54,225 nucleotides of DNA from Akkermansia sp. (GTDB lineage Bacteria; Verrucomicrobiota; Verrucomicrobiia; Verrucomicrobiales; Akkermansiaceae). The notes under the pieces were generated by a model. That model ran no database searches. It was not told where the DNA came from and saw nothing but the letters and a program-made list of their open reading frames with translations. Made by a program: the position numbers and the translations under genes. The DNA is taken from assembly GCA_017504805.1 (NCBI GenBank), contig JAFVQN010000122.1, forward strand, positions 1 to 54,225. The letters run 5' to 3'. This document shows positions 9,791 to 48,749 of this stretch, piece by piece. Numbering within the stretch: the stretch's first letter is position 1; every line of letters starts with the position of its first letter.

Positions 9791-9818
9791 TTGAAGAAGG
9801 GTGTTTCTATGCTAAAGT
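9791..9818 (+). promoter_or_regulatory. Candidate promoter of the autotransporter gene
   Basis: TTGAAG (9791-9796), a 16-nt spacer and TAAAGT (9813-9818) end 7 nt before the ATG at 9826, which predicts a leaderless transcript. An alternative -10, TATGCT (9808-9813), has no good -35 at normal spacing. Confidence 0.45.
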
Positions 9819-9825
9819 GCGGAGT

Positions 9826-12800
9826 ATGAAATTGCGTCTGCCCATCGTTTTGCGTCTATGTCTTCTGTTTTCACAAGCTTTTCCAGCCACCGCCGCGTTG
9901 ACATGGAGTGGGGGCGACTGGAATTACACGGAAAGCTCATGGCTGGATTCCGGCGAATCGATGGTGTTCAGCCGGGGTGACTCGGTCGAGTTTACCGCGA
10001 CTGCAACCGAAAAGATGGTAACGATAACTGAAGCGGTGGAACCAGGAAGCATTCTGGTCAGCGCCCCCGGGTATCAATTTACTGGTTCAGGAACAATCAC
10101 CGGCAGTGGGGCGTTGAGTATACAGCAGGGAGGGAGTCTTCTGATATCTATTTCCAATTCCTTCACCGGTGGGACGCAGGTTGAGGAAGGGGCTTCACTG
10201 CGTCTGGCGCTTTATGACAGCGTGGGTACGGCGTCGACTTCAGAACGTGCCCTGGGCAGCATATCCGGAGCGGGGACTGTGGAGGTTTCGTTCCTGAACG
10301 AGGGTACTCAGGCATCTGTTCAGGGGAATAGCTGGTCAGGCTTTACCGGCGTTTTATATGTTGAACAAGGGAGTATCGGATTGGGCCGACTTCCGAACCA
10401 TAGCGGTGCAGGACGCACTGTGCAAATTAACGCAGAGTGTATAGAGGTAGGCTCGGATGGGCGATTGGTGACCTCCTATTCCGGAGGTACAGCGGCGCTG
10501 AGCACTGGTAATGCTCTGATTTCCGATATCCGTACGGAGAATGGCAGCGTGATAGGAAATCGCGATGGCCACATCAACTGGACTGGAGACGTGTATCTGA
10601 ATATGGCTGACGTGACGGCTCAGACCCCGGTGTATCAGTCGGCGGCTGAGACAGAAATGTCACTGTATTATGGTAAGTACGTCGTATGGGACGGCGTTGT
10701 ACGGGGGGAAGGCACCTTGCGGCTGACCGCGGGGGTGCCTGATTCATCCACAGACCACCGGCTGGTCCTGACCAACTCAGCCAACACTTTCAGCGGAACC
10801 TATCAGGTCGCCGGTAACCATCTGTCGACCCTGGCACTCGCATCAGCCGATGCGGCCAGCGCCTCCAGTGTGGAATTGCAGAGTGCGAATGCCCGCCTCG
10901 TGTTGATGGCATCGGATGCCGCCATACAGGCGCTGAATGGGACGCAGGGTGTGGTGCAGGCAGAAGGCACCGGCGCCTGGACGCTGTCGGTAGCCTCTGG
11001 CGATTACTCCGGAATCATCCGCGATGCTGGCACCCCGACTGCAGGGTTGAGTCTTGGTATATTGAAAGAGGGGAACGGGGAGTTATTGTTGTCCGGCCCT
11101 TCATGTTCATATACCGGTACCACCACAGTGAACGGAGGCAGCTTACGGTACAGTGGCGATGCTGCGCTTGCTTCCATAGACATGGCAGGTAATGGTGGGT
11201 TATTGCAGACTGCCGGTAATCTCTCGTTGCAATCCGGAGCCGGATTATCGTTCAATCTGGAGAATACGACCGGAGCCAGTGTGGAAATCGGCGGTGATTT
11301 CCAGTTAGCGGCAGCAGCATGTCCGGTGCAGTTGCGAGGGTATGAAAACCTGGGCGTGGGAAGCTATCCGTTGATGCATTGGAGCGGTAGCTCCAGCGCC
11401 GGGGGTGCGGCATTTTCTCTGTCCGGAGTGAGTGCCTCCGATTCTCTGGTCTACAGTCTTACTGTGCAGGAGAACGCCTTGCAGCTTCAGGTGAAGAGCC
11501 TGAATGACGTGCCATGGTTGTGGAGTGGAGGTTCTGCGACCTGGAGTGATGATTCATCTGCCGGGTGGAGTAATGCATCAGCCAGCGGACCTGCAGGTCA
11601 GAGCGTGACGTTCAGCCTCCGCGATGCCGGCACTGTGTCGATTAACCGCGTTACGCCGACGGCCGTGGAGGTGATAGGAGGTGTGTATACATTTGTCAGC
11701 ACCGGTCAGGACGCTGTCGGTGTGGTAAGTTCAGGAAATCTGACCATCAGCGGTCAGGATACTGTGCTGAATCTGAATCTCGCAAATCCACAATTGACGG
11801 GGGCGACCTATCTGCAGGGAGGAACACTGGTGCTGGGGGATGCCGCAGCGCTGGGGGAATCTGCGTTGCATTTCAATGGTGGGTTGTTGCGTTACGCCCC
11901 GGGGGTGACTCAGGACATGAGCACAGCGGTGAGCCCGGCATCAACTTCTACCGTGCGTGTCGATACGAACGGTAACAATGTCAGCTGGAGTTCAACCGCC
12001 GGAGTGATGCAGGCTCTGCGTTCGGGGGTTGAAAAGCAGGGTGCCGGTGAGCTTGCTTTATCCTGGGTCGCAGCTGGTGAGACGATTACATCAGACCTGA
12101 ATATCAAGGAAGGAACTTTGAGCCTCAGCAAGACAAGTGGTCAGGGAATACTGATCGGGAGTTTCTCCGGCACGGGAACACTCTCGCTGAACAGCCCCTC
12201 AGGCCAATTAACGGTGCGTGGCGATAATACCGGCTTTGGCGGTACCATCGAACTCACGGGCGACGGCAGTTCCACGGGCGGCAGTGTATCTTTTGCAACG
12301 GGTGATGCCCTTGGCGGTAGCAGCACTCTGGTTCGTGTCATGGGGCAGCGTTTCTGGTTCGGTTCCAATACTAGCACGCTGGCCAATCTGGAGATTGTCA
12401 GAGGATATTCAACCATTCTGGATGGCAGCACCGGGGGCCGCTACGTCTTTGCCGGAAGCGTGAGTGGCGGCGGTGAATTGTCGCTCAATCCGTCGAGTCA
12501 CATCGAAATGCCGGGAAATCTCAGTGATTTCACCGGGACGTTCCGGCATCCCGGCAGCACGACTGTGGGGTGGCTGCTGGGCGGTGCGAATGTGGCCGGC
12601 AACGGAATCCTGCAATGTGAACTCAATGGTGCAGGCAGCGGCATCACGTATGCCATCTGGTACAGCGGGGAAACCATCTTCAGCGGAGCGGTAACCGGGC
12701 AGGCCGGACTGCGCCAGCGAGGAAGCGGGACTCTCATCCTGACGGGCGAGAATACTACCACCGGCGCTCTTCAGATAGACGAATCATGCGCGGTGCAACT

Positions 12801-15678
12801 GGGGTCAGCCACTCAGGCGGGGCTCTGGTCTGGCAATACTCTGAGCGGGAATGGTACCTTTACGCTGGTCAACGGAGCTCTGGCAACGCCGCTCACCTCG
12901 ATATCCGGCACCTTACTTGCTGAGGTCGCGGCGGGTGCGCAGGTAGACATGGGCGGGATGAGTGGAGATGCGCTTCAACGTATTACCATCGGCGCCGGTG
13001 GGCAGCTTTCCGGACTGGCGGGGGATTTGAACATAGGCTCCGGTGCTGGAGTAGCCAGCCTCGAGCTGACGCCCGGCTCTGCCAATGTGGGGGCAACCCC
13101 CATACCGGCGGACGGTGCTCAGTATATGATTGAACAGGGTGCCGGCCAGTTGCAGATTCATGATAGTGCCACGGTGACACTGGATATGGAGACGATAAAA
13201 TCCCTCATCCAGGGAAAACGGCAGGCTGTATACATCCATATCACCAGCGGCAGTATTTCTCTGTTGAATGGTATAACGGCAGATGATTTGTTTAGCAATA
13301 GCGCCACTACCCCCGCGGCACTCGGTCTGGTGGTGCTGGGCGTGGAAGGTGGCAACATCGTTCTGGAGGGCGCCGTGCGGGATGTTTACATGGTTACGGA
13401 GAATGGCGACTATCCCACGGTTACCACATACGACCGCCTGCAACCGTATCTGGCGACTTTTGTGGATGCCGGGTACGAGCTTTCGCTGCAACTCCCGGGA
13501 AATAATGCACAGCAGGCCTGGGTCAATAATCTGCTGGGTGCCGGTGATTTTTCGGTGGTGAATTCAGAGCCGGCTTCCGGAGTCGTGCGTGTATTGCTCA
13601 ACAACGCGGTGCTGGGCGCTGTGGATGGTGACCTTACACCCGGGGATGAGATGCAGATTAACACGGCCAACACGGAATTGCAAGGCAACATCACTGCCGG
13701 GCCGGGAGTGCAGCTGGTCAAGACCGGTAGCGGAACATTCTCTCTCGGCGGTCAGTTGGCAGCAGACTGGTTTGAAATAGATGAAGGCACAGTCCGCCTT
13801 CTGGGCTCCGGGAGTCGCGTTAATACCTTGCACGGCATGGGTGCTTTGCAGCTGGAAGCCGGCAGCAGCCTTGAAATCAATGCCGATTCACTCGGGTACA
13901 CCGGTGAACTGAGCGGCTCCGGCACTTTGGTGCTGAATGGTGAGCTCCGCGGTGCTGGCATCGTGGGCTCCCTGAACGGAAGTGGCGGCCTGCTTGCGGA
14001 TGGTGCAACATTTGAGGTCCTGAATGTCCGGAACGGCACCTTTTCCGGGAGTCTGCTCCCGGGGCGGGCTCCCGGATTGCTGCAAGTTGATGCCGGCGCC
14101 GGTTCCTTTACCATGCGGCATGTTCAAGCCAGTAGTGCCTGGTCACTGCAGAATCAGGGTGCGCTGGTGCTGGACCAGAGCGGTGAAAGTGCCAACTCTG
14201 CGCTGACTCTGGGCTCTCTCCGCCTGCTGGATGGTTCCATCACGACCATCGTGCTGAATACTGACGCTGATATGCAGGTGTTTCATTTTGCGTCGCTGCA
14301 GGTGGAAGATGGCGCGGCGGTCACGCTGCAATCCACCGGGGACCAGAGGCTGGAGGTGGCCGGTGATGGTACAGTGGTGCTGGGCAGAGTGGCAGATGCT
14401 CAGCTGGGAGCGGATGCGCTTGTCCCGCTGAATCTGGCTGGTGCGACTCCCTTCAGCGGCATTGAGTCCGCCTGGCTCACCGTGGAGCAGGGACGGCTCG
14501 TGCTGCATCTGCTTCGCTCGGAAGTTAATGGCTACAGCAGCCTGGCCCATTCTCATAATGCACAGGCCGGGGCGCGAATGCTCTGGCATCTGCCGAATCA
14601 GGTGCTGAATGCCGCGCCTGATTTGCGGGAGGTTACGGCAGCGCTCAATGCCATGCTCGATTCTGGCAGAACGACTGGAGCAGACCGTCTTCTGGCTGCC
14701 GTGGCGGGGGCTGGCACTGCTGTGCTGGGTGCTGCCGTGGTGGGGGATATTGAGCGCCAGCTCAAGGCTATCCGCAACAGAACTACCAGCATGGGGGTGG
14801 ATAGCGGCACTGTGCCTGATGAAATGCCGCTGCTCAATGCCTGGATTCACGCCGAAGGTGACCGCAGCGAGCTTGACGCAGATGGAAGCTCCGCAGGCTA
14901 TACCCTCAGCAGCTGGGGTGGTACGGTCGGGTGCGATGCGGATGTGTCCTCCTGCTGGACCGTGGGGCTTGCCCTGACCGCCATGTACGGTGATTTGCAG
15001 GGCGAGAGCCCTGATCACGCCGAGGGGGATGCAAACACCTTCTACCTGAGCTTGTTTGCCCGCTATGCCGCCCGGCGTTGGACTCATACCCTGGTGGCGG
15101 CTGCCGGCCTCGCTGATATTTCACTGAATCGGCATCTGTACTATCCCGGCGGTTCATACCGCACGCGTGGTGAAACGGATGGTGTCATGGCCGGGCTCCT
15201 TTATGAAGTTGGTTATGTGATTCCGCTGGATGAGGATAACCAGGCCTGCATTCAGCCCATTGCGAATCTGAGCTATCGCCATGCCACTGTTGATTCCTAC
15301 CGCGAGCACGGCAGTGATGCTGCCCTGCGTGTCGGGAGTCAGCGTATGAATGTGCTCACCATCGGTCTGGGTGCGCGAGCCCAGACTTATGCTCTGGAGA
15401 GCACTTACAACCGCTCCTGCCTTCTGGAGGCACGGGCATTATTGAAGCTGGATGCCGGAGACCGTCGCAGCTCGGATTCAGTGGAGCTGCTGGCAGCTCC
15501 GACACGCCGCGGTCACCTGCGCTCTGCTGATACCGGCCGCGTTGGCATGGAACTCGGAGCTGGTATCACGGTTCCCATCGGGGTAGATGCCGGCAGCTTG
15601 TTTCTTGATGCCGGATTCGAACTCCGCTCAGAGCAGACCGAGCTGAACGCCGTGCTTGGCTACCGGGTGAATTTCTGA
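9826..15678 (+). CDS. Very large autotransporter with PATR-type passenger
   Basis: This is a 1950-residue type V secreted protein. A signal peptide ends near residue 24 (FPATAA, then LTWSGG). The passenger is a long Gly/Ser/Thr/Asn-rich beta-helix-like stretch with repeated autotransporter strand motifs such as ITGSGALSIQQGGSLLIS and KEGNGELLLSGPS followed by YTGTTTVNGGSL. A WSGGDW/WSGGSATW module recurs at about residues 27 and 565, so the passenger appears to hold two related halves. The last 285 residues or so (from about 1664) form the outer-membrane beta-barrel, ending in the classic terminal aromatic (GYRVNF). I chose ATG 9826 over the GTG three codons upstream because that GTG falls within the predicted -10. 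Adhesion or self-association is the usual role of such proteins; the ligand is unknown. Confidence 0.88.
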   Translation: MKLRLPIVLRLCLLFSQAFPATAALTWSGGDWNYTESSWLDSGESMVFSRGDSVEFTATATEKMVTITEAVEPGSILVSAPGYQFTGSGTITGSGALSIQQGGSLLISISNSFTGGTQVEEGASLRLALYDSVGTASTSERALGSISGAGTVEVSFLNEGTQASVQGNSWSGFTGVLYVEQGSIGLGRLPNHSGAGRTVQINAECIEVGSDGRLVTSYSGGTAALSTGNALISDIRTENGSVIGNRDGHINWTGDVYLNMADVTAQTPVYQSAAETEMSLYYGKYVVWDGVVRGEGTLRLTAGVPDSSTDHRLVLTNSANTFSGTYQVAGNHLSTLALASADAASASSVELQSANARLVLMASDAAIQALNGTQGVVQAEGTGAWTLSVASGDYSGIIRDAGTPTAGLSLGILKEGNGELLLSGPSCSYTGTTTVNGGSLRYSGDAALASIDMAGNGGLLQTAGNLSLQSGAGLSFNLENTTGASVEIGGDFQLAAAACPVQLRGYENLGVGSYPLMHWSGSSSAGGAAFSLSGVSASDSLVYSLTVQENALQLQVKSLNDVPWLWSGGSATWSDDSSAGWSNASASGPAGQSVTFSLRDAGTVSINRVTPTAVEVIGGVYTFVSTGQDAVGVVSSGNLTISGQDTVLNLNLANPQLTGATYLQGGTLVLGDAAALGESALHFNGGLLRYAPGVTQDMSTAVSPASTSTVRVDTNGNNVSWSSTAGVMQALRSGVEKQGAGELALSWVAAGETITSDLNIKEGTLSLSKTSGQGILIGSFSGTGTLSLNSPSGQLTVRGDNTGFGGTIELTGDGSSTGGSVSFATGDALGGSSTLVRVMGQRFWFGSNTSTLANLEIVRGYSTILDGSTGGRYVFAGSVSGGGELSLNPSSHIEMPGNLSDFTGTFRHPGSTTVGWLLGGANVAGNGILQCELNGAGSGITYAIWYSGETIFSGAVTGQAGLRQRGSGTLILTGENTTTGALQIDESCAVQLGSATQAGLWSGNTLSGNGTFTLVNGALATPLTSISGTLLAEVAAGAQVDMGGMSGDALQRITIGAGGQLSGLAGDLNIGSGAGVASLELTPGSANVGATPIPADGAQYMIEQGAGQLQIHDSATVTLDMETIKSLIQGKRQAVYIHITSGSISLLNGITADDLFSNSATTPAALGLVVLGVEGGNIVLEGAVRDVYMVTENGDYPTVTTYDRLQPYLATFVDAGYELSLQLPGNNAQQAWVNNLLGAGDFSVVNSEPASGVVRVLLNNAVLGAVDGDLTPGDEMQINTANTELQGNITAGPGVQLVKTGSGTFSLGGQLAADWFEIDEGTVRLLGSGSRVNTLHGMGALQLEAGSSLEINADSLGYTGELSGSGTLVLNGELRGAGIVGSLNGSGGLLADGATFEVLNVRNGTFSGSLLPGRAPGLLQVDAGAGSFTMRHVQASSAWSLQNQGALVLDQSGESANSALTLGSLRLLDGSITTIVLNTDADMQVFHFASLQVEDGAAVTLQSTGDQRLEVAGDGTVVLGRVADAQLGADALVPLNLAGATPFSGIESAWLTVEQGRLVLHLLRSEVNGYSSLAHSHNAQAGARMLWHLPNQVLNAAPDLREVTAALNAMLDSGRTTGADRLLAAVAGAGTAVLGAAVVGDIERQLKAIRNRTTSMGVDSGTVPDEMPLLNAWIHAEGDRSELDADGSSAGYTLSSWGGTVGCDADVSSCWTVGLALTAMYGDLQGESPDHAEGDANTFYLSLFARYAARRWTHTLVAAAGLADISLNRHLYYPGGSYRTRGETDGVMAGLLYEVGYVIPLDEDNQACIQPIANLSYRHATVDSYREHGSDAALRVGSQRMNVLTIGLGARAQTYALESTYNRSCLLEARALLKLDAGDRRSSDSVELLAAPTRRGHLRSADTGRVGMELGAGITVPIGVDAGSLFLDAGFELRSEQTELNAVLGYRVNF

Positions 15679-43681: not shown

Positions 43682-44143
43682 ATGCAACACTTCCTGAGAT
43701 CAAATAAGGAGATGGAATCTTTAGATGAGGAACTGGCCCGGGAGCATTTTTCTGGAAAAACGAGAGAAGAGGCAAAGAATCTTATAAAGAGCAACTTCAA
43801 TTATTATGTTGAGGATTTGGCTTGGATGAGCAGTGCTCTTTTCGATCAATATGTACTTTCTGTCACAGATCTTGCAAAAGAAGAATTGCAGGATTTTGAT
43901 GAGGAAAGCAGCGATTGTCTGGAGAATATCGTGAATATGCTGGAAGGCCGATACATACTCAATGGCAACTCAAGAGAAGAGCCTTTGAAAAAGATAGCTG
44001 AATTGCTGTTCCTGTGCAGGGAATTCTGTGAGCGCACCATGCAAACTCCGACCTTTTCTCTTTTGCACAGGCAAGAACAACGCATAATCTTATCTGCTCT
44101 GAAAAAAATTAACTCCTTGGCAAAGTCATATAGTATACAGTAG
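43682..44143 (+). CDS. AT-rich orphan protein downstream of tRNA-Leu
   Basis: This 153-residue, charged, mostly helical protein has no signal peptide, membrane span or catalytic motif that I can identify. Its base composition differs sharply from its surroundings: 22 of 60 bases are G or C in 43741-43800, against 42 of 60 in 43321-43380. It sits 69 nt after a tRNA gene, a common insertion point. The gene downstream is convergent, so it stands alone. An immunity-type or other accessory protein would fit the size and charge, but there is no direct support for this. The start at 43682 is the first ATG; another at residue 11 is possible. Confidence 0.7.
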   Translation: MQHFLRSNKEMESLDEELAREHFSGKTREEAKNLIKSNFNYYVEDLAWMSSALFDQYVLSVTDLAKEELQDFDEESSDCLENIVNMLEGRYILNGNSREEPLKKIAELLFLCREFCERTMQTPTFSLLHRQEQRIILSALKKINSLAKSYSIQ

Positions 44144-44171: not shown

Positions 44172-44876
44172 TCATTGTATCTGGAATGTGATGGTGGTTT
44201 CAACCCGGGCCGGTACGGCCTGGTCGTTCCGGCGGGCGGGAGTGAAGGTCCAGTTCCTGAGTATCCACTGCTGAACATGAGTGTCCAGAGCCGCAATTCC
44301 GCTGCTGCTGGAAATGAGAACATCGGTGACGCCGCCATCAGCCCCCACTCCGATGTTGACGGTTACGCAACCGCCGAGCCGCCGCTGTCGCATTCGTGCA
44401 GGATAGGGAGGCTGAGCGCAATCCCGATAGGTCGGCGGGGTGAAGGTGCTTTCTGTACGAGGTGCTCTGCCTGGAGTTTGAGGGGGGGCTGTTTCTTCGA
44501 CGAACGCCAGCTCTGCAAGCTTTTCCGCGTATTCCTCATCTGCGTATTCCTCATCCGGCAGTTCCGGAGGGGAGAATTCTGGCAAATGGTATTCCACAAT
44601 CGGCTGCGGGAGAGGCGCTATATCAACACTCAGTGATTCCACCTGGGGCACAGGCAGTTGCTTTTGCTGAGCCTGCGTATTGGTGAATTCATCCTTTGCA
44701 TAATAGGTGATTCCCGTGAAATCGCAGCCGCAGGTGGCCGGAGTGAGTATGAGGCAGCTGTGCGCCCAGAAGCCGCAGCTGAGCGCCAGAGGAAGCAGTG
44801 CCCACAGGCAGAGCCACGCCCGCTGCATGCGTTGCCGGGCCAGTGTTGCCGCTGGTGTGTGGAGTATGTGAATCAT
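44172..44876 (-). CDS. tonB: TonB energy transducer
   Basis: This 234-residue inner-membrane protein couples the proton-motive force to outer-membrane receptors. It has one N-terminal membrane helix (about 18-42), a Pro/Glu-rich periplasmic spacer with the repeat EEYADEEYAEKL, and a C-terminal TonB domain (about 155-234). That domain runs from PPYPARMRQRRLGGCVTVN through VLISSSSGIAALDTHVQQW to NWTFTPARRNDQAV and ITFQIQ. ExbB and ExbD are not in the window. It overlaps the binding-protein gene by 4 nt (ATGA), so it looks dedicated to the receptor encoded in the same operon. Confidence 0.9.
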   Translation of the reverse strand: MIHILHTPAATLARQRMQRAWLCLWALLPLALSCGFWAHSCLILTPATCGCDFTGITYYAKDEFTNTQAQQKQLPVPQVESLSVDIAPLPQPIVEYHLPEFSPPELPDEEYADEEYAEKLAELAFVEETAPPQTPGRAPRTESTFTPPTYRDCAQPPYPARMRQRRLGGCVTVNIGVGADGGVTDVLISSSSGIAALDTHVQQWILRNWTFTPARRNDQAVPARVETTITFQIQ

Positions 44877-46627
44877 TTTTCTGACTCAATCCAGAACAGG
44901 TGGGCATCCAGCGCATCGAAGCACCATGGGCTGGGCGGAATGCGCAGCTGCGGCCAATGCGCGATGCAGACCCGGTTTTCTTTCCAGCCGGGAAGCCAGA
45001 TGGCGTGTTCATAAACCAGCTGGTCAATGCGGGCCAGGGCGGATTCGGGAGATGTTGCGCTCTGGAATGAGCGCAGGGCTTCTGCCATATCATCTGCGTG
45101 AAGACAGAAGGGGGATTCGGCGGATTCGGGTGAGAGCAGCCGGGCTGGAGCAGGGTATTCCGGTACCGGAACAGCCCAGAAGACCAATTGGTGCCTGTTT
45201 TCCTGCATCTGCCGTTGGCATACCTGCCAGGGGACTGGTTCGGGCTGGATCTCTGCGCCGCATGCTGCTGCGCTTTGAACGAGAGCCTGTACCATGGCGT
45301 TGATTTTGTCTCCGGGTGAGTAGAGTAGTCGTACACTCAGTCGTGCGCCCGTTTTTTCATGCTTCAGAATGCCATCTGTGCCGGCGTCGGTATAGCCGGC
45401 TGCTGCGAAATGCGCGCGGGCCTGCTGCGGAGCATAGTGGTATTCGGGAGTATGGACCGGGCTCAGTGTCCCGTATCCGGAGTGAAAGGTGCGGAGCCTG
45501 CGGCCTTCACCCCTGAACATGTGCTGCACAGCAGTGTCCATGTCCATGGCATTCAGCAGCCCCCGGCGCAGTTCTAAATCTGGAAGAGTGCTCGCATTCA
45601 GCGCTATGCCGTACGGCGGCAGCGGGTATTCGGCATCGTACTCCAGGTGCTGCAGCGACGGGTTGGAGTCGTAGTACTGCTGCCAGGCTGCCATGTTTCG
45701 TGTCTGCACCGCATCCAGCCGGCCTCGCATCAGAAACTCCCAGACCTGAGCCTCAGAGTTGAGAAAGTGGTACTCAATAGTGTCGGCATTGAAGCGTCCC
45801 CGGCAGACCGGCAGGGGCTCGCCCCACCAGTTGCGGATGCGTTGCAGCACGACAAGCCTGCCTTTTTCTAGTTTGCAGATGTGGTAGGCACCGGTTGTGG
45901 GAGGAATGCGCTGGGCGTATGTTTCACGGAAATCAGAGCCGAATCCGGAGTAGAATCCCGGCTCCGCGGGCTGCAGTAGTTGAGCTGCCCGAAGAATGGA
46001 GGACTCCTGCCGGAAGGTGAGGGAAAGCAGATGATCTCCGTGGACTTCCATTTTTTCTGCAGCGCTGGCAAGAGCTTCGTATTCCGGGCAGTGCTGCTCT
46101 GCCTGGAGCAGGGCGGCCAGCAGGTAATCAGCCGCGCGGACTGGTCTGCCGTTGGTGTATCGGGCTGCCGGGTTGAGACGGAACCAAACGGTCTTACCCG
46201 TGGTGGCCCAGGCTTCCGCTACGCCTGCGGTGACGTCTCCGGTGACAGGATGCCGCAGGACGAGTGGAAGCTCAGTTGCCGCCAGCAGATTCTGGTGGAA
46301 AAACTGGGGGGACCCTCCTCCAAAACGCAGGAAATGAGCCGGGTAGGGACCAGCGTTGCAGAATCGTGCGCACCCGCCTTTCCGCGCATCCGGGTGTCCC
46401 AGGGAGGGGTGCTTTTCCGCCGTCTGCCAGTGGAGCTTTACTGGCATCGGCGCTCGCCGGTTGAGCTGCATGCCGCCTACCCGAAGCAAACGTTCATCAA
46501 AGTCTGCGGGGTAGGCGGCTGGGGCATACTCTTCGGTCGTCTGCAGGCGGGGGGATTCGTGCCGGGAGACAGCCCACCAGGCAACCGCCGCTATGAGGAG
46601 CAGGAAACAGAGTAGCCCTTTTTTCAT
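44873..46627 (-). CDS. Family 5 extracellular solute-binding protein (peptide/nickel type)
   Basis: This 584-residue protein has an N-terminal hydrophobic segment (about 4-21) without a lipobox, so it is a signal peptide or membrane anchor. The body matches SBP_bac_5: VTAGVAEAWATTGKTVWFRLNPAARYTNGRPVRAADYLLA, later TTGAYHICKLEKGRLVVLQRIRNWWG, and GIALNASTLPDLELRRGLLNAMD. Relatives bind oligopeptides, nickel chelates or haem and usually work with a Dpp/Opp/Nik-type ABC permease, which is absent here. It starts 2 nt after the receptor stop and overlaps tonB by 4 nt, all under a B12 riboswitch. The ligand is unknown. Confidence 0.85.
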   Translation of the reverse strand: MKKGLLCFLLLIAAVAWWAVSRHESPRLQTTEEYAPAAYPADFDERLLRVGGMQLNRRAPMPVKLHWQTAEKHPSLGHPDARKGGCARFCNAGPYPAHFLRFGGGSPQFFHQNLLAATELPLVLRHPVTGDVTAGVAEAWATTGKTVWFRLNPAARYTNGRPVRAADYLLAALLQAEQHCPEYEALASAAEKMEVHGDHLLSLTFRQESSILRAAQLLQPAEPGFYSGFGSDFRETYAQRIPPTTGAYHICKLEKGRLVVLQRIRNWWGEPLPVCRGRFNADTIEYHFLNSEAQVWEFLMRGRLDAVQTRNMAAWQQYYDSNPSLQHLEYDAEYPLPPYGIALNASTLPDLELRRGLLNAMDMDTAVQHMFRGEGRRLRTFHSGYGTLSPVHTPEYHYAPQQARAHFAAAGYTDAGTDGILKHEKTGARLSVRLLYSPGDKINAMVQALVQSAAACGAEIQPEPVPWQVCQRQMQENRHQLVFWAVPVPEYPAPARLLSPESAESPFCLHADDMAEALRSFQSATSPESALARIDQLVYEHAIWLPGWKENRVCIAHWPQLRIPPSPWCFDALDAHLFWIESEK

Positions 46628-46629
46628 GT

Positions 46630-48564
46630 TCAGAAGTCGATGGTGCAGCCGCCGTAGACCGCAGCGCCCGGGGCCAGGATGTTGCCGCTGCTGCGGTCTG
46701 CCACGTAGTCCTGGTCAGTCAGGTTCTCCACTCGCAGGTGCAGCGTGAGCGTGTCGTTCACCTCATACCTTGCAAAGAAGCGCAGCGTGCAGTATGAATC
46801 CAGCCGGGTGCTGTCCCAGTCCCTTCTGCCTGCTGCTGCTGCAAGTCCCACGCCAGTGGTCAGGCCGCTGAGCGGGCTGGTGTGGATTTCTGCACTCCAC
46901 ACCTGGCGGACAGAGTTGGGAATGGCGCCGCCGTCCTGCTGGTGCGGCTGGGTGTATGTCCAGGCGAGTTTGTACCCGCTGTCCCAGGCGTCGCCGAGGC
47001 TGCCACTGAGCGCCAGCTCCACCCCCTGGCTGGTCCATCGCTGGCTGGTGTTTTCATAGCGGTATGTATTGGGGGCATCGCTGTATGGAAGCGCTTTGAT
47101 ACCATCCGCCACCTGCTGCCAGAAGTAGGTGAGGCTGATAGTGTGGGTGTCGGAGAGGTCATGCTCGATTCCGATATCGGCGCTCCAGCTGGTTTCGCAA
47201 TCCAGCCCGGGATTACCGTAGTAGGTGCCCCATCCGCTGTCGTAAGCACTCGTGCTGCGCTGGAAGGAACTGGGTCCCCGGTACCCGCGGCCTGCAGAAC
47301 CAAAGATGCGCGAACTTCCGTGGTTGAAGGTGTAGCTGCTGGCCGCGCGGATAGTAGGGAGAGTCTGGTAGATGCTGCTGTAATCAAGCCTCATGGATAC
47401 GGTGTTCGTCCACTCCGGGATGGGCGAATACAGGTGCTCCACCGCCAGTGCGTATACGTTTTCCAGATTCCGGTCGTTGTTGCGGTGGCCGGTGTCATAC
47501 TGGCTGCGGGTCCAGCGCAGAGCTGCTGAGGTGGTGTGTCGGGGATTCCACCGCAGGGCATGGCGCCATTCCAGCTGTACATTGCGCAGATCCTGGTTGT
47601 AACCATGGCCCAGCATGTTGTCTGCACCGTAGTAGCCAGCCATCAGGCTGGTGGTGTAGTTTGTCGCAAGCTTGTTGGTTACTTTTGCTGTTACCAGATT
47701 CGTGCGGAAACGGAAGGGTGTGGTGCTCCACATGCCGTCGAACAGGTAGGCTGAGTCGTACCAGGCGTCTTCGCGGCGGTAGGTGGTGCTCAGGGTGGTG
47801 CTTTCGTTCAGATCGTAATCGAGGCGGATGGCCTGAGCGTAGCACTCGTAACGACCGGCTTTGGAATCGTGCGGACGTGAGCCGCTTGCGCTGCGGATGT
47901 CGTTATCCGTGTGTTCGTAGGTGCTGGAAACAAAGAAATGCAGTTGATTTTGTTCACCCTGTGCTTGGATATTGGCTGAATAGGTGTCGAAACTGCCCGC
48001 CTCTTGAAAAATGCTCAGTGTGGGGGCTCCTTCGCCCCGGGGTGTTTCCATGTAGAGGATGCCGCTGATGGCGCCGCCACCGTAGCCGGCGCCCTGGCAG
48101 CCACGCAGTATTTCCACTGACCCCAGGTCAAAGAGATTGGCCCGTGCCGCGAGATTGGGTGTGACATTGCCATTGCCGCTGCTGCCACTAACCAGCATGC
48201 CGTCTATCATGGGCAGCAGGTAGCTCTGGCTGCCCATGCCGCGGATGACGAGATTGGAGACGTTGCCCCGGCCACCGAGCCCCCCGCCGGGAAGTGCGTG
48301 TACCCCGGGTGTGGAGGCGGCGGCATCGCTCAGGGTATGAATGCCCTGCTGGCGCAATGCTGCAACATCCAGTACACTGACGGAAACGCCGCTCTGGTCG
48401 TACGGCAGGCTGATTCCTTCGTGAGCCGAAACGGTGATAGGTGCCAGCGTGGTGGTGGGGACTGTATCTGCCGCTGTCGGGGCGGCTGTGCTCAAACCTG
48501 CCAGCAGAAGGGCAGGCACGACGCGCGTGGTGCTCCCGGTGGGAGCCTTCATTTGTATTCTCAT
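46630..48564 (-). CDS. TonB-dependent outer-membrane receptor, BtuB-like, riboswitch-controlled
   Basis: This is a 644-residue receptor. A signal peptide (ending near TAAPTAAD) is followed by a TonB-box-like segment (TLAPITVSA). The plug domain contains QQGIHTLSDAAASTPGV, NLVIRGMG, and SVEILRGCQGAGYGGGAISGILYMETP. The beta-barrel ends in the terminal aromatic of outer-membrane proteins (GGCTIDF). Because translation must start after the riboswitch, the 23 upstream in-frame codons that cross the B12 box are excluded. ATG 48564 or 48552 are the candidates. The compact size and B12 control point to corrinoid uptake; the ligand is inferred. Confidence 0.9.
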   Translation of the reverse strand: MRIQMKAPTGSTTRVVPALLLAGLSTAAPTAADTVPTTTLAPITVSAHEGISLPYDQSGVSVSVLDVAALRQQGIHTLSDAAASTPGVHALPGGGLGGRGNVSNLVIRGMGSQSYLLPMIDGMLVSGSSGNGNVTPNLAARANLFDLGSVEILRGCQGAGYGGGAISGILYMETPRGEGAPTLSIFQEAGSFDTYSANIQAQGEQNQLHFFVSSTYEHTDNDIRSASGSRPHDSKAGRYECYAQAIRLDYDLNESTTLSTTYRREDAWYDSAYLFDGMWSTTPFRFRTNLVTAKVTNKLATNYTTSLMAGYYGADNMLGHGYNQDLRNVQLEWRHALRWNPRHTTSAALRWTRSQYDTGHRNNDRNLENVYALAVEHLYSPIPEWTNTVSMRLDYSSIYQTLPTIRAASSYTFNHGSSRIFGSAGRGYRGPSSFQRSTSAYDSGWGTYYGNPGLDCETSWSADIGIEHDLSDTHTISLTYFWQQVADGIKALPYSDAPNTYRYENTSQRWTSQGVELALSGSLGDAWDSGYKLAWTYTQPHQQDGGAIPNSVRQVWSAEIHTSPLSGLTTGVGLAAAAGRRDWDSTRLDSYCTLRFFARYEVNDTLTLHLRVENLTDQDYVADRSSGNILAPGAAVYGGCTIDF

Positions 48565-48615
48565 GTCTGGGATTGCCGTTGATTCAGCGGTGCATCGCCG
48601 CTGTGAGTCGTTGGC

Positions 48616-48749
48616 GATCTCCCTGGCTGGCATTCCGGCTCAGCGCCCCGGTTATGTTTCCGAAGCTCAATACGGTTGCGGCACAGTGACGGATTCTCAC
48701 CGTCTTTCCCATCTATTTCCTGCGGCTTCCAGCCGCCTCCGGGGAGACC
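48616..48749 (-). promoter_or_regulatory. Cobalamin (AdoCbl-class) riboswitch
   Basis: On the minus strand an 8-bp P1 helix (GGTCTCCC at 48749-48742 with GGGAGATC at 48623-48616) closes the aptamer. Inside it are GGGAA, GGTGAGAATCC (48701-48691), CACTGTGCCGCAACCG, and the B12 box GAGCCGGAATGCCAGCC (48641-48625), all canonical for this class. A further hairpin (GCACAG/CTGTGC, 48774-48753) precedes P1. Between aptamer and start codon there is a 6-bp hairpin (48603-48585) without a T-run, so control is probably translational. Confidence 0.95.

Follow-up and report, generated by a model that had tools for sequence, protein, structure and literature searches.

A cobalamin-riboswitch operon with a YejA-type binding protein as a candidate corrinoid importer of Akkermansia

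In cobalamin uptake of the E. coli type (BtuB-BtuFCD), cobalamin riboswitch control, a BtuB-type receptor and a periplasmic binding-protein step occur in a corrinoid context, and all of these recur in the Akkermansia operon described here. The operon differs in that a family-5 protein of the YejA type stands instead of BtuF, BtuC and BtuD are missing, and a tonB gene is included; its permease is probably shared and encoded elsewhere. Gut cobalamin receptors are also known from the BtuB-BtuG systems of Bacteroides, whose structures are among the best matches of our receptor model. However, the Bacteroides BtuB proteins are paired with surface lipoproteins, and none was seen beside the Akkermansia operon.

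The TonB-dependent receptor MbnT supplies the periplasmic, YejA-type protein MbnE with copper-methanobactin (PMC7558416; PDB 5icq). In the Akkermansia operon, too, a TonB-dependent receptor would hand a metal chelate of around 1 kDa to a YejA-like protein of the periplasm, although the cargo of MbnT-MbnE is copper-methanobactin and its regulation is a different one. Cobalamin, with about 1.36 kDa, is similar in size to methanobactin and microcin C, both of which are bound by the YejA subfamily. In Agrobacterium tumefaciens, YejBEF also works with YepA, an additional binding protein encoded separately from it, in place of a dedicated transporter that is missing (PMC9790009). The likeness lies in an extra, separately encoded binding protein that serves a YejBEF core with a special cargo. 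The cargo of YepA, in contrast, is muropeptides, no TonB receptor or riboswitch is described for it in PMC9790009, and in Akkermansia the pairing with YejBEF is a predicted one.

Operon layout and riboswitch

The window, i.e. the whole stretch of 54,225 nucleotides that was analysed, belongs to a member of the genus Akkermansia, with a genome of 2.04 Mb in 162 contigs that is 80% complete. On the minus strand, positions 44172-48749 hold, in this order, a cobalamin riboswitch and the genes for a TonB-dependent receptor, a family-5 solute-binding protein (SBP-II) and TonB (Table 1). The junctions are tight, with +2 nt between receptor and SBP-II and -4 nt between SBP-II and tonB, as reported by the first-pass annotation of this DNA. 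Its statement that no permease or ATPase lies nearby also holds, because no ABC permease or ATPase gene was seen when the open reading frames of the 54-kb window were read (the Pfam scan covered operon-near genes). Beyond the 3' end of tonB, after a tRNA-Leu, the opposite strand carries an ORF of 153 aa without a Pfam family (43682-44143, +). An autotransporter of 1953 aa with PATR repeats is encoded at 9817-15678 (+).

Table 1. Features of the operon, in window coordinates
Feature	Position	Strand	Basis
Cobalamin (AdoCbl-II-like) riboswitch aptamer: P1, core, B12 box	48616..48749	-	RF01689 35.4 bits, RF00174 26.6 bits; 20/31 pairs covary; orthologs over threshold
Hairpin CAGCGG-CGATGCA-CCGCTG, between aptamer and receptor start	48585..48603	-	Direct reading of the sequence
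BtuB-type (by model) TonB-dependent receptor, TonB box near APITVSAHEG	46630..48564 (start alternatively 48552)	-	Pfam plug and barrel; AF2 model
SBP-II, family-5 solute-binding protein, YejA paralog, N-terminal hydrophobic helix 2-21	44873..46627	-	SBP_bac_5 115 bits; fold; tree
tonB, TonB protein with C-terminal domain 155-232	44172..44876	-	TonB_C PF03544 59.5 bits

The P1 helix of the aptamer is formed by GGTCTCCC-C-GG (48749-48739) and CC-A-GGGAGATC (48626-48616), i.e. by eight pairs, one mismatch and two further pairs. The window copy falls just under the Rfam gathering thresholds, with 35.4 vs 36.5 bits for AdoCbl-II (RF01689) and 26.6 vs 31.5 bits for Cobalamin (RF00174), and an Rfam scan at its own threshold returned a tRNA as the only match, narrowly missing the riboswitch. 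Orthologous leaders pass both thresholds (best 52.3 bits for RF01689 and 48.6 bits for RF00174). In an alignment of nine orthologous leaders, 20 of the 31 predicted pairs show compensatory changes, a count reached by none of 500 shuffles. Pairing is possible in 93.4% of the alignment cells, compared with 70.2% in shuffles, and drops to 43% when one strand is shifted by a single base. Because the relatives exceed the thresholds and the helices covary strongly, the window element is a real cobalamin riboswitch with conserved core, B12 box and covarying structure, despite its own sub-threshold score. The covariation and the ortholog scores thus bear out the earlier reading of the aptamer as well supported, with its 8-bp P1, core and B12 box. 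The hairpin downstream may be the stem of an expression platform; its GCAC could form pairs with GTGC in the core loop.

Receptor, binding protein and TonB

The longest receptor ORF opens at 48633, within the aptamer, and ends at 46630; the true start is most likely one of the two given in Table 1. Both Pfam domains expected of the type, plug (PF07715, 59 bits) and barrel (PF00593, 93 bits), were found. When the AF2 model (pLDDT 81.1) was compared with the PDB, the first 14 rows were all B12 receptors (Z 40.4-36.3), and siderophore and haem receptors followed at 36.2 or lower (FecA 36.2); rows less than one Z unit apart count as tied, which leaves the Bacteroides receptors and FecA unranked relative to each other, whereas E. 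coli BtuB stands clear. The best match was BtuB, with Z 40.4 and an rmsd of 2.1 over 534 residues. TonB-B12 was the best-scoring NCBIfam model, yet its equivalog cut-off was missed, with 105.8 vs 599.7 bits. A BtuB of a sister genus, taken from an unambiguous btu operon, also stays under this cut-off (175.6 bits). Sequence models do not settle the family of the receptor. Judged by its model, the receptor is BtuB-type.

SBP-II carries an SBP_bac_5 domain (Pfam, 115.1 bits). Its best phmmer matches among PDB sequences were 4ony, YejA and the methanobactin protein MbnE, and the same three made up the top seven Foldseek matches of its AF2 model (pLDDT 91.9). With a second structural aligner several family-5 proteins were tied, and NikA structures were close fold matches. 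In the tree, all SBP-II proteins fall on one side of a branch with 99/98 support, apart from the canonical YejA of the genus and the family. This topology indicates that SBP-II is a monophyletic, duplicated paralog of YejA. A comparison of the two groups found no column (0) with residues that discriminate SBP-II from YejA, and no corrinoid pocket signature.

The canonical YejA is present in 58 of the 59 genus genomes. Where examined, it is encoded in a separate yej operon, apart from SBP-II. In the window genome, this operon lies on another contig (C101) and reads yejB-yejE-yejA-ATPase before it is interrupted by the contig end; a complete relative has two ATPase-like stretches after yejA. Outside Akkermansia, members of the family are mostly single-copy, and of the canonical type where they were placed on the tree. 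SBP-II therefore appears to be confined to Akkermansia within the searched genomes, and its named relatives are Akkermansia proteins, including those of A. muciniphila and A. glycaniphila.

The third gene encodes a TonB protein, as its TonB_C domain (PF03544) exceeds the cut-off with 59.5 vs 24.6 bits. A tonB was found downstream of SBP-II in at least 36 related loci, a lower bound given that TonB varies fast, and was not detected in the A. muciniphila-type versions of the operon. The first-pass description of a self-contained uptake module is too strong for an operon that encodes no permease or ATPase and whose A. muciniphila-type versions have no detected tonB.

The operon in the genus and its relatives

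Comparison of the gene neighbourhood in related genomes, a check proposed together with the first reading, revealed an operon conserved across the genus. SBP-II is carried by 57 of the 59 sampled genomes, and 44 of those 57 have a same-strand cobalamin riboswitch 2.0-2.6 kb ahead of it, a distance equal to the length of one receptor gene. In the two sampled genomes without SBP-II, no cobalamin riboswitch was detected either. A separate retrieval gave 54 SBP-II loci, from species partly overlapping the 59-genome sample; these were obtained with an alignment as query, while a single-protein query returned none. Of the 52 loci with a scorable binding-protein ORF, 47 have the receptor gene immediately before it. 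Since this order recurs across the genus, it is not due to chance.

The genomic surroundings vary. In genomes of the A. muciniphila type, the operon and cobDQ-cbiB are transcribed away from each other, and a CbiR-like gene and cobU belong to this locus too. It is the one that PMC7733943 describes as a remodelling locus, and the paper mentions putative transport genes next to cbiR of strain MucT. In genome G138, SBP-II (L085) and the receptor (L077) are encoded at separate places, and the riboswitch-led receptor is near a methylmalonyl-CoA mutase gene.

Several neighbouring genes are worth recording in their own right. In several rabbit-gut Akkermansia MAGs (L041, L042, L092, L103, L110, L111, L139) metE, the gene of the B12-independent methionine synthase, lies just upstream of the riboswitch-receptor operon on the same strand. 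A. muciniphila-type genomes hold another cobalamin riboswitch about 35 nt upstream of a conserved autotransporter of about 1320 aa (PF03797; L073:4459-8601, minus strand, and L163-L169). This gene is situated within the region of the uptake operon, near cobU, and a diverged copy (37%) follows a riboswitch match in G129. The gene product could be a surface protein under B12 control, possibly one that captures cobamides. Genome G113 (L074, L075) has further cobalamin riboswitches before nrdD, the gene of the anaerobic ribonucleotide reductase, and before a pair of cbiK and a corrin methyltransferase gene.

Two sister genera (L141-L143) encode riboswitch-btuB-btuF-btuF-btuD-btuC. Gene order thus indicates that SBP-II occupies the position that BtuFDC holds in these genera. 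Near the btu operon of one of them (L141, G012) lie two ORFs, a large Cas9-like one (1188 aa) and a Cas1-like one, with repeat-rich flanks, apparently a CRISPR locus.

Known importers were searched for in the genus. Of the 59 genus genomes, 58 gave no strong match to a FecCD/BtuC-type permease, among them complete or near-complete and single-contig ones. A weak FecCD match in the window genome was rejected as BtuC, as it scores far better as an ABC-3 permease (148.8 vs 27.9 bits). The FecCD pair of G138 (L076), the sole strong one in the 59, has a FkbO/Hyg5 chorismatase-like neighbour and is thus probably of the siderophore type. No match to ABC_membrane_2 (BacA/SbmA type) exceeded the cut-off in the 59 genomes. 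An ECF cobalamin transporter was dismissed as the general route, since CbiQ is encoded in just 12 of the 59 genomes and not in that of the window. The absence of BtuC alone is not diagnostic, because most genomes of the sister family also have no strong FecCD match. In the window genome, the riboswitch before the receptor is the sole cobalamin riboswitch detected, and there is no BtuC; the finding that, according to the first-pass annotation, would speak against corrinoid uptake, a btuFCD set under its own riboswitch in the same strain, was not made there.

G100, a genus member with a 99% complete genome, is without SBP-II and YejA. Its riboswitches precede an nrdD-like gene and an operon for corrin synthesis (L140, L157-L159), and by its gene content it looks like a B12 producer. 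Its strong FecCD match was not accepted as a BtuC that replaces SBP-II, as no riboswitch at this locus exceeds the threshold and an FmdE-like gene is present there. In the same genome, a CbiA/GATase protein carries a fused CPT (chloramphenicol phosphotransferase-like) domain.

Proposed route of corrinoid import

The window genome encodes MetH, the B12-dependent methionine synthase. Without methionine, A. muciniphila grows only if cobinamide or a cobamide is supplied, and it remodels the added forms (PMC7733943). As it uses these compounds and yet the importers searched for are largely absent from the genus, some corrinoid importer must exist. We propose that the operon would be expressed when the riboswitch senses scarce B12. 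BtuB, driven by TonB, would then bring corrinoids into the periplasm, with the tonB of the operon serving its own receptor. There, SBP-II would bind the corrinoids and dock on YejBEF. This peptide permease, whose genes lie with that of canonical YejA on a different contig, would carry the corrinoids into the cytoplasm for MetH. SBP-II and the shared YejBEF would together replace BtuF-BtuC-BtuD.

Not all parts of this route are equally firm. That the operon serves corrinoid uptake in Akkermansia is very likely. The proposal, made at first reading, that a family-5 protein was recruited for corrinoids has gained from the genus-wide operon, the BtuB-like receptor, the cobamide neighbours, the absence of BtuC and the btuFDC genes of the sister genera, while corrinoids as the cargo itself are what we infer from these. 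The next step, in which SBP-II takes corrinoids from BtuB and docks on a shared YejBEF, is probable from the comparison of genes and families. YejBEF is the simplest partner because SBP-II has no permease of its own and its closest paralog is encoded in a permease operon that is otherwise complete. A remote permease of the Dpp/Nik type had been anticipated; the candidate to which this points is a Yej-type system on another contig. For the genus as a whole, we lean towards a duplicated YejA-type protein that loads corrinoids onto YejBEF and so replaces BtuF-BtuC-BtuD.

Another permease could be the partner of a corrinoid-binding SBP-II. The window genome encodes an OppA-like protein and OppB/C-type permeases (contigs C106/C89), so that a partner of the Opp type is at hand. 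We nevertheless regard an Opp-type or other permease as unlikely, as the closest paralog of SBP-II is YejA, the Opp system comes with a binding protein of its own, and there is precedent for YejBEF working with an additional binding protein encoded remotely (PMC9790009). A different doubt concerns the cargo. If SBP-II bound a cobalt or nickel chelate or peptides, the corrinoids imported by BtuB would use a separate inner-membrane carrier. Peptides, nickel and metal chelates are all ligands of family-5 proteins, NikA is close in fold, and no pocket signature sets SBP-II apart from YejA. On the other hand, SBP-II is preceded by a BtuB-like receptor in an operon without its own permease, and in sister genera its place is taken by btuF-btuD-btuC. 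Furthermore, the A. muciniphila operon adjoins cobamide salvage genes, and the CbiQ-type transporter, the usual route for cobalt, is encoded elsewhere. Another cargo is therefore rather improbable, even more so than another permease.

The 80% completeness and the 162 contigs of the window genome would also allow for a conventional BtuB operon that adjoins an unrelated gene, with BtuFCD lost from the incomplete assembly. This explanation has been largely refuted and has very little probability left, since complete and near-complete genomes of the genus, single-contig ones among them, are also without BtuC-type FecCD, and the gene order is conserved. For the same reason, incomplete assembly was rejected as the cause of the missing btuC.

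We return to import through SBP-II and YejBEF. None of the papers found in our literature search connects YejA or a peptide ABC transporter with such cobalamin uptake, and none explains how cobamides are carried across the inner membrane in A. muciniphila. Akkermansia, known as a cobamide-importing genus, thus probably takes in B12 by a previously undescribed route. According to a survey of gut genomes, identifying the transporters for B12 and its precursors is an open problem in numerous genomes (PMC6593275). A. muciniphila, much studied as a gut bacterium, relies on external cobamides or precursors, which it remodels, and the operon offers a concrete, directly testable importer candidate in a culturable species. 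Annotation pipelines that seek only BtuFCD or CbrT would miss B12 import in such organisms. If the proposed route is true, one peptide permease can serve a vitamin through an added binding protein, and corrinoids would be imported via the oligopeptide class of ABC transporters.
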